Shown here in pieces: positions 33,945-59,228 of a DNA stretch of 64,000 nucleotides. Source of the DNA: Actinomyces respiraculi (lineage in GTDB: Bacteria; Actinomycetota; Actinomycetes; Actinomycetales; Actinomycetaceae); NCBI RefSeq assembly GCF_014595995.2, contig NZ_CP063989.1, positions 2,604,001 to 2,668,000 of the forward strand, read 5' to 3'. The notes under the pieces were generated by a model. It did no database searches, was not told the origin of the DNA, and was given only the letters and a program-made list of their open reading frames with translations. Position 1 is the stretch's first letter, and each line of letters starts with the position of its first letter. A program made the translations under genes and the position numbers.

Positions 33945-34021
33945 CCCACCGCGAGCGCCGCGCGAACCCCTGGGGTGGCGCCCCACCCACCGCGAGCGCC
34001 GCGCGAACCCCTGGGGTGGCG
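33945..34021. repeat. 36-bp direct duplication inside the transposase remnant
   Basis: Identical 36-bp copies begin at 33945 and 33986 (CCCACCGCGAGCGCCGCGCG and following), a 41-bp period that is not a multiple of three. Confidence 0.9.
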
Positions 34022-34327
34022 TCCCACCACGCTGCAGGTGCGGGTGCACTGGTACCGCTGCGCCGGTTGCGCTCACGTGTGGCGCCAGAGCACGCAGGCG
34101 GCGGCCCAGCCGCGCTCGAAGATCTCCCGGGCGGGCCTGAGGCGGGCCCTGAGCGGGATCGTGGTGCAGCACCTGTCCATGGCCCGGGTGGCCCAGGGCC
34201 TTGGCGTGTCATGGAGCACGGCCAACGAGGCGGTCCTGGCCGAGGGCAAGCGCGTGCTGATCGACAGGCCGGGCCGGTTGTGACGGCGTCAGGGTCATCG
34301 AGGTCGATGATCCCCCCGCTGCGCTCT

Positions 34328-34440
34328 CATACGGGAGGTACCCCCCGCACCCGTGCGCCCGCTCCACGAGTGAGGTCGTCTCCCCCTCGCCGTCGGCCCG
34401 GGCATACGGGAGGTACCCCCCGCACCCGTGCGCCCGCTCC
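34328..34440. repeat. 38-bp direct repeat, two copies 75 bp apart
   Basis: CATACGGGAGGTACCCCCCG begins identical 38-bp copies at 34328 and 34403. Both lie in the DNA that interrupts the transposase remnant. Confidence 0.9.
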
Positions 34441-34513
34441 CGCTCTCACAGTCCGCCTCCGCTCCGGCAGCTCGCGCGATCCCCACACCTACGACCGGAC
34501 TCGGCGTGCGTGG

Positions 34514-34645
34514 GTTGATCTCGTTCCCCGTGCGTTGATCTCGTTCCCCATGCGTTGATCTCGTTCGTTGAGGGAACGAGATCAACGGTTCGCGAACGAG
34601 ATCGACGGCCCTCGAACGAGATCGACGACGGGGAACGAGGCGAAG
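34514..34645. repeat. Mirrored 20-bp-phased repeat array 1 (3 forward + 3-4 inverted)
   Basis: GTTGATCTCGTTC occurs at 34514, 34534 and 34554, exactly 20 bp apart. Its reverse complement form GAACGAGATC(A/G)AC follows at 34574, 34594 and 34614, with a decayed unit near 34633. The two halves are separated by a 7-base loop, so the whole can pair as a long hairpin. It lies within the sequence that splits the ISL3 transposase remnant. Confidence 0.9.
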
Positions 34646-34699
34646 GATGGAGGTGACCGACAGGGGTCCCGGACGAGCCACCCGCCGCCGCTTGACACA

Positions 34700-34724
34700 C
34701 CACATAGGGGCAGCCCCTATGTGG
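34700..34724. repeat. 11-bp-arm hairpin at the right junction of the interrupted transposase
   Basis: CCACATAGGGG-CAG-CCCCTATGTGG is a perfect inverted repeat. Its right arm merges into the resumed transposase sequence (ATGTGGCGCCAC). Confidence 0.85.
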
Positions 34725-34893
34725 CGCCACACGCTCACGGGCGACACGTACGTCACCGTGGTCATCGACCTGACCCCGCCAGGGCACCGGCACGGCCCGT
34801 CTGCCGGGCATGGTTCCCGCACGCTCGAAGCAAGTGTTCACGAGCTGGCTGGCCGCCCGTCCCCACCCACGCCCCTGCTCACACTTCCGCCCA

Positions 34894-35046
34894 GTGACCT
34901 CGCTGCCCAGCCGTTGACCTCGTTGCCCGCCCGTTGACCTCGTTCCCTAGCGGTCCACCTCGTTCCTTGAAGGAACGAGATCAATGCGCAGGCAACGAGA
35001 TCGAAGGGCGAGGGACGAGATCACCAGCTGAGGGACGAGATCACCC
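34894..35046. repeat. Mirrored 20-bp-phased repeat array 2 (4 forward + 4 inverted)
   Basis: GACCTCG words align at 34896, 34916 and 34936, with CCACCTCG at 34955. Inverted ACGAGATC words lie at 34975, 34995, 35015 and 35035. Spacing is 20 bp throughout, and the centre is GGTCCACCTCGTTCC-TTGA-AGGAACGAG. It ends about 40 bases from the glucokinase stop codon. Confidence 0.9.
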
Positions 35047-57482: not shown

Positions 57483-57612
57483 GGACTACCTTCCCCCGCT
57501 CGGACCACCTTCCCTCGCTCGGACCACCTTCCCCCGCTCGGACCACCTCAGACGCGTTCACAGGTGGTCCGAACTGGCTGTTGGTGGTCCGAACTGGCCG
57601 TTGGCGGTCCGG
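57483..57612. repeat. Mirrored repeat array 4 (GGACCACC type, 4 forward + 3 inverted)
   Basis: GGAC(T/C)ACCTTCCC or close variants start at 57483, 57502, 57521 and 57540 (19-bp steps). Inverted GG(T/C)GGTCCG units follow at 57563, 57583 and 57603 (20-bp steps). The mirror layout is the same as in the GTTGATCTCGTTC arrays, with a different but related word. Confidence 0.85.
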
Positions 57613-57653
57613 ACGACGTGCGGGCCGCGGCATCGACACCGGCCCACGGCCCG

Positions 57654-57709
57654 GTGGGACCGCCAACGTGTCAGTGCCCCGGTGGGACCGCCAACGTGTC
57701 AGTGCCCCG
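57654..57709. repeat. 28-bp perfect tandem repeat, two copies
   Basis: GTGGGACCGCCAACGTGTCA begins two identical adjacent 28-bp units (57654-57681, 57682-57709). Confidence 0.9.
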
Positions 57710-57812: not shown

Positions 57813-58229
57813 ATGTCAGCCGTCACCCGGGCGCTGGCCCTGCGGCGCCTGCGCGAGGAGTCCCCCGTGCTCGCACTCATGCGCTCCGACACCATGCCGG
57901 TCGCGGCCGCAGCCCTGGCCGAGGCTGGAGCCGCGGCCGAGGCCGGGGCCGGGGCCGGGGCCGGGGCCGAGGCCGGGGCCAGGGCCGGACGGAGGCTGGG
58001 GCTGAGGCCAGGGCCAGGGCCGGACGGAGGCCGGGGCTGAGGCCGGGGCCAGGGCCGGACGGAGGCTGGGGCTGAGGCTGAGGCCAGGGCCGGGGCCAGG
58101 GCCGGGGCCGGGACGGAGAACGCCGGCGGCGTCGTCACCCCGTTGCGCCTGGAGCAGGAGCGCATCGCCTGGGACTGGGCCGAGCCGCGCATCCGCCGGT
58201 CCGTTGAGGCCGCCCGCAGGGGCGGGTGA
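57813..58229 (+). pseudogene. Small hypothetical gene broken by a G+C-rich repeat tract
   Basis: ATG with two AGGAGG-type ribosome sites opens MSAVTRALALRRLREESPVL and continues ALMRSDTMPVAAAALAEA. It then enters a GAGGCCGGGGCC tract and stops at TGA 58038-58040. In the same frame after the tract comes VVTPLRLEQERIAWDWAEPR, then a basic end and TGA at 58227-58229. The tract contains three copies of a CCGGACGGAGGCTGGGGCTG-like unit, each one base short of a frame-keeping form. Expansion seems to have broken an originally continuous gene. The N-terminus faintly recalls DUF3375 (JetA) proteins, but that is too short to trust. Confidence 0.5.
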
Positions 58230-58345: not shown

Positions 58346-58413
58346 CAGGCGCAGACACGCTCAGCCGCTGGTAGCGCGCAGCGCCCATCTCCACGCGCGA
58401 TGAGGTGCAGCCT

Positions 58414-58434
58414 GTCACCGATGTCCCGAGGCAG
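58414..58434. repeat. CACCGATGTCCCGAG word (IS-associated type), copy 1
   Basis: GTCACCGATGTCCCGAGGCAG recurs as CTCCGATGTCCCGAGGTAGA and CACCGATGTCCTGAGACATC at 59055-59105. In actinobacteria such strings commonly border IS481-type elements; no transposase is present here. Confidence 0.45.
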
Positions 58435-58445
58435 TACTGCCGCCG

Positions 58446-58510
58446 AACTCCTCGGTTTGCTCGCGAAAGTACGGCACAACACCGTACTTTCGAGAGCGAA
58501 CCGAGGAGTT
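58446..58510. repeat. 29-bp-arm inverted repeat (27/29 paired) with 7-nt loop
   Basis: AACTCCTCGGTTTGCTCGCG plus GAAAGTACGG or so pairs with the reverse complement ending ACCGAGGAGTT; the loop is CACAACA. It could be a MITE-like element or a strong transcript stem. Confidence 0.85.
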
Positions 58511-58610: not shown

Positions 58611-58783
58611 GTCGACCTCGTTCCTCGCCCGTCCATCTCGTTCTGCTCGCGTCGATCTCGTTCCGTACGCGTTGACCTCGTTCCGTGAACGAACGAGATC
58701 AACGTGCGAGGGACGAGATGACGAGCCGACGGACGAGAGGGAGGGCCGAGGGACGAGCCGGAGAGTCGACGAACGAGATGGAC
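58611..58783. repeat. Mirrored 20-bp-phased repeat array 3 (4 forward + 5 inverted)
   Basis: GT(C/T)(G/C)A(C/T)CTCGTTC units start at 58611, 58631, 58651 and 58671. Inverted G(A/G)ACGAGA-type units start at 58691, 58711, 58731, 58751 and 58771. Every step is 20 bp, including across the axis (CGTTCCGTGAACGAACG). Confidence 0.9.
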
Positions 58784-59054
58784 GGGCTCAGCGTGCGCCG
58801 TCCAGGCCCCGGGCCTGGTGACGACGACGTCGGGCCATGACCTGGGGTCTCGTCAGGAACTGACGCCCGTGTGTGCAGTGTGGCCACGGGCGGCGTGCAC
58901 GAGCGGCGGCCCGAGCCTGTCCGCACCTGCGGGACAACGAGCTGGTGGCAGCGCGGGGGATTCCAGGCCGGCGACCGCCACGGGCCCGATGGGCCGGAAG
59001 CCGGAGGAGACCACCCCCGCCACCCAGACGTGTCACCCCCGCACACACCCGACG

Positions 59055-59105
59055 TGTCTCCGATGTCCCGAGGTAGAACTGTCACCGATGTCCTGAGACA
59101 TCGCA
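59055..59105. repeat. CACCGATGTCCCGAG word (IS-associated type), copies 2-3
   Basis: Two further copies in tandem: TCTCCGATGTCCCGAGGTAG and TCACCGATGTCCTGAGACAT. Confidence 0.45.
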
Positions 59106-59110
59106 CCTGC

Positions 59111-59228
59111 GTTGCGGACAACGTATCTGCGTTGTGGACAACCTGGCCGCGTGTGGATCACCTCGTTACTCCAATACGGTGATCCACACTGCGCGAGGTG
59201 GTCCGGATAGCAGCGAGGTGATCCACAC
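59111..59228. repeat. Mirrored repeat array 5 (3 forward + 3 inverted)
   Basis: GTTGCGGACAAC, GTTGTGGACAAC and GTGTGGATCACC start at 59111, 59131 and 59151. Inverted GGTGATCC, GGTGGTCC and GGTGATCC start at 59178, 59197 and 59217. Same mirror layout and 19-20 bp steps as the other arrays. Confidence 0.8.

Follow-up and report, generated by a model that had tools for sequence, protein, structure and literature searches.

Mirrored arrays of a short word on a 19–20-bp lattice, dispersed in the genome of Actinomyces respiraculi

What are the mirrored rows of a short word that recur in a 64,000-nucleotide stretch of the Actinomyces respiraculi genome? An earlier account of this stretch (the whole of which we call the window), made from its letters alone, described five such arrays. 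It proposed that a protein could bind every unit on one face of the DNA, or alternatively that the transcript could fold into a phased hairpin. We refer to this account as the sequence-only reading. All five arrays are present where it placed them, and the phenomenon is larger genome-wide than was claimed.

Mirrored, phased rows are common to all five arrays, but they form two geometric classes where a single architecture had been proposed. Class 2 has the word NTYSAYCTCGTTC, a step of 20 bp and an axis gap of 7 bp, and has three members in the window (array coordinates are given without strand). The first (34514..34626) comprises three forward words (34514, 34534 and 34554) and three reversed words (34574, 34594 and 34614) on either side of the 7-bp axis GTTGAGG. 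The second (34893..35045) has four forward and four reversed words that are more decayed, and the third (58611..58783, belonging to family C) has four forward and five reversed words, three of the latter being strongly decayed yet still on the 20-bp lattice. Class 1 has the word GGAYNAC, a step of 19–20 bp and an axis of 24 bp, measured between the innermost words of the two arms. Its two window members are an array at 57483..57611, with four GGAYNAC words in 19-bp steps, a 24-bp axis and a reversed arm of two clear words and one decayed, and an array at 59116..59224, with three forward and three reversed words about its 24-bp axis. The lattice thus persists in decayed arrays, bearing out the suggestion that spacing is kept where the words decay. 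The word GTGGACAAC near 59116 resembles a DnaA box; DnaA boxes were considered as an identity for the arrays and rejected.

A strict scan of the window for mirrored arrays detected two of the five (at 34512 and 34911) together with a low-complexity match at 57912, the remaining three arrays lying below its threshold. Three Markov shuffles of the window gave no matches. Low-complexity repeats of the GGCCGGGGCC type occupy approximately 57940–58115, where they lie inside or close to a possible short gene, and a 28-bp unit is perfectly duplicated in tandem directly after the first class-1 array (57650–57705). A hairpin with arms of about 29 bp (CTCCTCGGTTTGCTCGCGAA..., 58446..58510) is separate from the arrays. 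A palindrome akin to it, CTCCTCGGTTTGCGCTCGAA, recurs as two copies (L339) in the relative G036, and as judged by eye its two halves stand on either side of the family C element of the A. respiraculi locus L032, as if split by that element.

The class-2 word is 13 bp long and close to GTYGAYCTCGTTC. Exact copies of GTYGAYCTCGTTC occur 93 times in the 2.91-Mb genome while the reversed control does not occur at all, and chance is therefore excluded. Thirty word-bearing loci and the window together cover all 93 occurrences, and within them we read 42 class-2 arrays, in 28 of the 30 loci and the window. In the two other loci (L035 and L048) the exact word occurs once, within a predicted gene, and there is no array. 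These are the only loci, for all 93 exact words, where the word lies in a gene rather than in an array, and an uptake sequence is rejected. Four further axis matches (869009, 1106706, 1106861 and 2073525) lie outside the 30 loci, in addition to the 42 arrays. The sequence-only reading would have been undermined by a lack of further copies; many are found in this genome, and some in relatives. There are no class-2 word matches at about 1.50–1.97 Mb, and since dnaA lies near base 1 this gap may represent depletion near the terminus.

The geometry of class 2 is tightly kept. Same-strand steps, measured between 7-mers within clusters, are 20 bp in 182 of 199 cases, 40 bp in 10 and other values in 7. 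The axis, measured start to start between 7-mers, is 18 bp in 38 of the 42 arrays and one unit longer (38 bp) in the other four. The 20-bp lattice runs on through the inversion point, where the 7-bp axis gap is like the other gaps. Unit number is more variable, with one to six units in the left arm and two to ten in the right; the equal numbers of forward and reversed copies that had been claimed are found in 12 of the 42 arrays and fail in the rest. The arrays can be divided into subfamilies A to D, each with conserved, repeated flanks, and in several of these the arms differ by eye, one tending to ...YGATCTCG and the other to ...YCCATCTCG. Family C arrays are paired 155 bp apart at three loci (L039, L040 and L047). 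Beside one class-2 array (L033:1219-1284) there is another phased word family, three copies of GAGAACTGGTGTTRTTC in 22-bp steps, for which a comparison with plasmids gave no match.

Class 1 shows comparable regularity. In ten arrays, six of them from G036, the axis is 24 bp in nine and 43 bp (24 + 19) in the tenth, and the steps are 19 bp in 37 of 43 and 20 bp in six. In about 797 kb of G036 there are nine class-1 arrays with the word GGACAAC, with steps of 19 bp in 37 of 39 and axes of 24 bp (six arrays) or 43 = 24 + 19 bp (three arrays). Two of the four class-1 arrays read in A. respiraculi (L087 and L088) lie about 0.7–0.9 kb from rve transposase genes, remnants that resemble IS3 and IS481 transposases. 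The class-1 pattern was absent from the viral contigs searched, and plasmids and phages gave weak chance matches only. The 7-bp (class 2) and 12-bp (class 1) spacers and the flip of orientation at the axis uphold the earlier statement that these are not CRISPR arrays, whose spacers are long and unique and whose repeats have a single orientation.

Which part of the unit is conserved? In 219 inner class-2 units, the core CTCG is conserved at 100, 99, 100 and 100% at its four positions, with A two bases before it in 97% and T after it in 95%. At spacer positions 17–20 of the same units the commonest base reaches merely 49, 36, 40 and 56%. The sample was picked with a loose mismatch limit that favors the core somewhat, but this bias is an unlikely cause of fixed core columns beside near-random spacer columns in the same units. 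The contrast between fixed core and near-random spacers therefore favors recognition of every unit by a protein, and to this extent the first of the two earlier proposals is strengthened.

By contrast, the pairing of the arms is not conserved. Over 124 pairs of left and right words we count 1242 Watson-Crick matches, where 1000 permutations give a mean of 1275 (95% range 1252–1297), and when G-U pairs are allowed 1328 against 1360 expected. Spacers pair between arms at 44%, as expected (44%). The arms in the A. respiraculi genome are slightly less complementary than chance, and stem differences there are random, a result that counts against the RNA proposal only. Without covariation between the arms, a conserved RNA stem is not supported in A. 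respiraculi, and DNA recognition by sequence would fit the class-2 conservation better. The five window arrays nevertheless fold better than their shuffles (z from −3.3 to −7.8; 0, 0, 0, 0 and 1 of 200 shuffles fold as well). They fold well because the core pairs, even though pairing is not what is kept. Rfam gave no match on the window, and on eight loci ten matches with E up to 5, none reaching the gathering score; known Rfam RNAs are rejected on that ground.

The arrays avoid genes and divergent promoters, 41 of the 42 class-2 arrays lying outside predicted genes. Their neighboring genes are tandem for 21, convergent for 11, divergent for 2 and undetermined for 8, compared with 10 tandem, 2 convergent and 8 divergent among the window intergenes longer than 60 bp; genes were predicted by a crude coding-potential caller, and arrays sharing one intergene are not independent. 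For many arrays, the closest predicted stop is hundreds of bases away. The stable hairpin of an intrinsic terminator is present while the T-run is lacking (three T or fewer in 12 nt at 80 of 84 array flanks). The earlier statement that these are not terminators of adjacent genes is too strong. Where A. respiraculi has four arrays (L042), the corresponding gap in G036 has a 20-bp perfect hairpin, and at L037 the G036 gap has an interrupted one; at L032 it has no perfect stem over 6 bp. At one convergent junction two other relatives (G003 and G004) have a hairpin bearing the word, where a wordless hairpin folds in all eight other species read, with a perfect stem of 13–18 bp in six of them. Of the 42 pairs of this G003/G004 hairpin 30 are the same, three are changed on both sides, one is changed on one side, four are broken and four gapped. 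Two further ortholog pairs from these genomes have no double change: one has 24 of 27 pairs the same and three broken, the other 23 of 26 the same, two one-sided and one broken. Given this mixed hairpin evidence and the lack of a T-run, termination is a plausible role for some of the sites, as judged from sequence, and does not account in general for the conserved core.

How widely are the arrays distributed? A search of 49 genus genomes for ATCTCGT-N6..14-ACGAGAT gave 26 places in A. respiraculi, four in G003 and three in G004, with a spacing of N11 in every case although N6 to N14 was allowed. Everted hairpins (ACGAGATCGACG-N3..9-CGTCGATCTCGT) occur 15 times in G017 and once each in G013 and G039. 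Among 213 genomes of the family, direct class-2 pairs at 18–21-bp steps number 104 in A. respiraculi and one to six in 12 others; single matches are near background, since the reversed control matches once in each of three genomes, while the pairs of G003, G004 and G017, read in context, are part of arrays. The closest relative seen, G036 (80–95% identity in matched blocks, mostly near 90%), has no class-2 pairs, and it also has hairpins bearing other words repeated at 20 bp. A second scan, for arrays of any word, found nine in 400 kb of G036 and none in Markov controls, one in G004, one in G029 that is a plain tandem repeat by eye, and none in 100 kb each of G021, G023, G045, G026, G012 and G047. 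Perfect stems of 24–34 bp occur at loci of G003, G004, G017, G013, G039 and G036, with the class-2 word twice per arm or, in G036, another word likewise twice per arm; one G004 locus (L190) has interrupted stems. These perfect hairpins suggest that pairing matters in relatives, and so the proposal of a phased RNA hairpin, which fails as a conserved feature in A. respiraculi, retains some support there. The class-2 core gave no arrays in viral contigs (46 stretches) or in GTDB species contigs (46 stretches), the matches having two lattice units each and one having three, in a pattern search that may omit records near the A. respiraculi genome.

The arrays are dispersed and mobile-like. The array at 34514 is carried by a 409-bp family A element (34311..34719, no strand assigned), which aligns with six other genomic copies and is inserted in an ISL3 (ISPfr2-like) transposase gene. 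The 5′ piece of that gene (34000..34310, plus strand) has 74% DNA identity to a Kocuria gene (in L392), and the 3′ piece (34720..34860, plus strand) ends shortly before the array at 34893, which starts 33 bp downstream. The break lies at the point where the relatives of the gene (references L392 and L393) pass from the GVDE codons to the VWRH codons. No target-site duplication is recognizable at this junction, the sole one worked out. At L032, two alignable blocks are 157 bp apart in G036 and 946 bp apart in A. respiraculi, a family C array being part of the longer stretch. This difference could also be a loss in G036 instead of a gain. The L050 ortholog gap in G036 contains an extra gene and is therefore no clean empty site.

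Is there a partner transposase? Inverted words related to TGTCACCGATGTCCTGAGACAT are seen by eye near the edges of the 946-bp stretch of L032, and words of this type form the ends of an IS481-like transposon in Mycolicibacterium alvei. In the plasmid of that species (pJCM12272, NZ_AP022566.1; L388) two TGTCACCGATGTCCTGA words lie 25 bp apart at one end with an inverted copy at the other, and between them is an intact ORF of 431 amino acids with rve domains, for which IS481 is the best-scoring NCBIfam model (203.8 bits, under the cut-off of 224). The window has two TGTC(A/T)CCGATGTCCYGAG words of the IS481-like end motif at 59054..59099 (no strand assigned) and a third copy at 58413-58429. By analogy, the M. 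alvei element may serve as a model for tandem words marking transposon ends, and is no proof of a gene for the class-1 and class-2 words. Those words were not found at the ends of the nine rve genes of A. respiraculi, in a check that covered the best inverted repeats and took two genes (of L089) as one span. The genome has no IstB, both PF01695 matches that pass the Pfam cut-off being DnaA and ClpX, and no Y1 (TnpA-REP/RAYT) gene (no match to PF01797, for which five of 14 control genomes were positive).

Several known systems share some of these properties. REPs are palindromes that occur in large numbers between genes, in clusters and on the 3′ sides of genes, and their words are lineage-specific; they alternate in orientation and accompany Y1 (RAYT) transposases. 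The present arrays are like REP, BIME and REPIN elements of Enterobacteria and Pseudomonas in their many intergenic palindromic copies, but they are rows of one orientation and then the other on a 19–20-bp lattice, and their arms do not covary. They are not filed as REP or REPIN because Y1 is absent. Like MITEs they are short, non-coding, repeated and palindromic, one is inserted in another mobile gene, and repeated copies are found at different sites, as seen from the repeated flanks, the ISL3 insertion and the absence from the G036 ortholog. Unlike MITEs they have no interior. No autonomous parent was seen among the nine rve genes checked. Hairpin terminators without a T-run resemble some arrays in convergent-junction position and strong folding, but an internal word repeated at 20 bp is not expected of them. 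According to PMC10122671, each end of IS21, Mu and Tn7 repeats the transposase word several times in direct orientation, at intervals of about two turns, and the orientation is inverted between the ends; in IS21 the direct repeats are separated by 23 bp. The arrays differ in their steps of 19 or 20 bp, in having up to 10 copies per arm, and in both ends standing back to back, and are not filed as of IS21 type because there is no IstB. The IS481-like element of M. alvei is similar in having a repeated word that is inverted at its other end, and its end motif also occurs beside family C arrays; it differs in its 25-bp step, its different word and its own transposase gene. Among the literature matches listed, titles and abstract openings hold no description of such arrays in Actinomyces.

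We propose that the arrays are lineage-specific, REP- or MITE-like palindromic elements composed of multi-site protein-binding arrays, probably read by a transposase, and give this proposal an even chance of being correct. Each array would be a mirrored row of sites for a sequence-specific DNA-binding protein; the sites would follow one another every 19–20 bp, or roughly two turns of the helix, and would be set a constant distance apart at the axis. Conservation in the units argues for protein binding. IS21, Mu, Tn7 and the IS481-like element all carry repeated words in their ends, and by analogy the protein is most likely a transposase; each array would then consist of a pair of multi-word transposon ends joined back to back, without an intervening gene. 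Such elements would insert between genes while avoiding divergent promoters, and would gain or lose units in whole 20-bp steps. At some convergent junctions they may stand where relatives carry a hairpin, and some arrays may end transcription. Within a class, the fixed axis could come from common descent from one founder, not from constraint.

A possible but somewhat doubtful alternative is that the arrays act as RNA-level structures, chiefly bidirectional transcription terminators or 3′-end stabilizers serving convergent and tandem genes, and that the word is a by-product of their spread. The folding of all five window arrays, the perfect 24–34-bp word stems of the six relatives, the word hairpin of G003 and G004 where eight species fold wordless ones, and the G036 hairpins at L042 and L037 all speak for it. 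However, A. respiraculi arms pair below chance and their spacers at chance, the T-run is missing at nearly all flanks, the other two G003/G004 ortholog pairs have no double change, the G036 gap matching L032 has no comparable stem, and many arrays are remote from a predicted stop.

If the units are instead host sites for a conserved chromosomal protein of nucleoid, partition or replication type, not derived from a transposon, then the ATCTCGT core found in other species, mirrored (G003 and G004) or everted (G017, G013 and G039), and the word-free region near 1.50–1.97 Mb would be explained. The six surveyed species without arrays, the absence of class-2 pairs from G036, the repeated flanks of the copies and the copy that interrupts an IS gene make this improbable. 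Still less probable is a neutral origin, in which a single ancient palindrome spread through 20-bp slippage and through recombination, without selection. Variation of unit number in 20-bp steps agrees with it, as does the unequal copy number of the arms in all but 12 of the 42 arrays, but neutral duplication of units would leave all positions alike, and this account is weakened by the fixed core beside near-random spacers and by the lattice kept in decayed arrays. We also consider, with considerable reserve and as rather unlikely, that the arrays are a distinct dispersed class defined by the lattice itself (step 19 or 20 bp, axis 24 or 18 bp), which each class would keep from species to species, with words that change between classes and lineages. 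A protein would then assemble cooperatively along one face of the DNA on both sides of the inversion point, each lineage evolving its own word.

We regard the arrays as a variant of dispersed palindromic repeats set apart from REP/REPIN, IS21 and CRISPR; among high-G+C Gram-positive bacteria they extend the known intergenic repeats by a family that is clearly delimited and can be counted. What is conserved is the internal word together with its constant step and axis; stem pairing is not. If a transposase or other protein does read the lattice, the more than 200 natural sites of this single genome could reveal its binding code. The placement of mobile palindromes where ordinary hairpins would stand between convergent genes would provide a natural experiment.

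Two minor observations may be added. A module is common to this DNA and an Actinomyces oris plasmid. In G004 there is a mirrored array with a 19-bp step and a word like CGTCACTTCGCGA (L367:331-430), which may represent a third word class.
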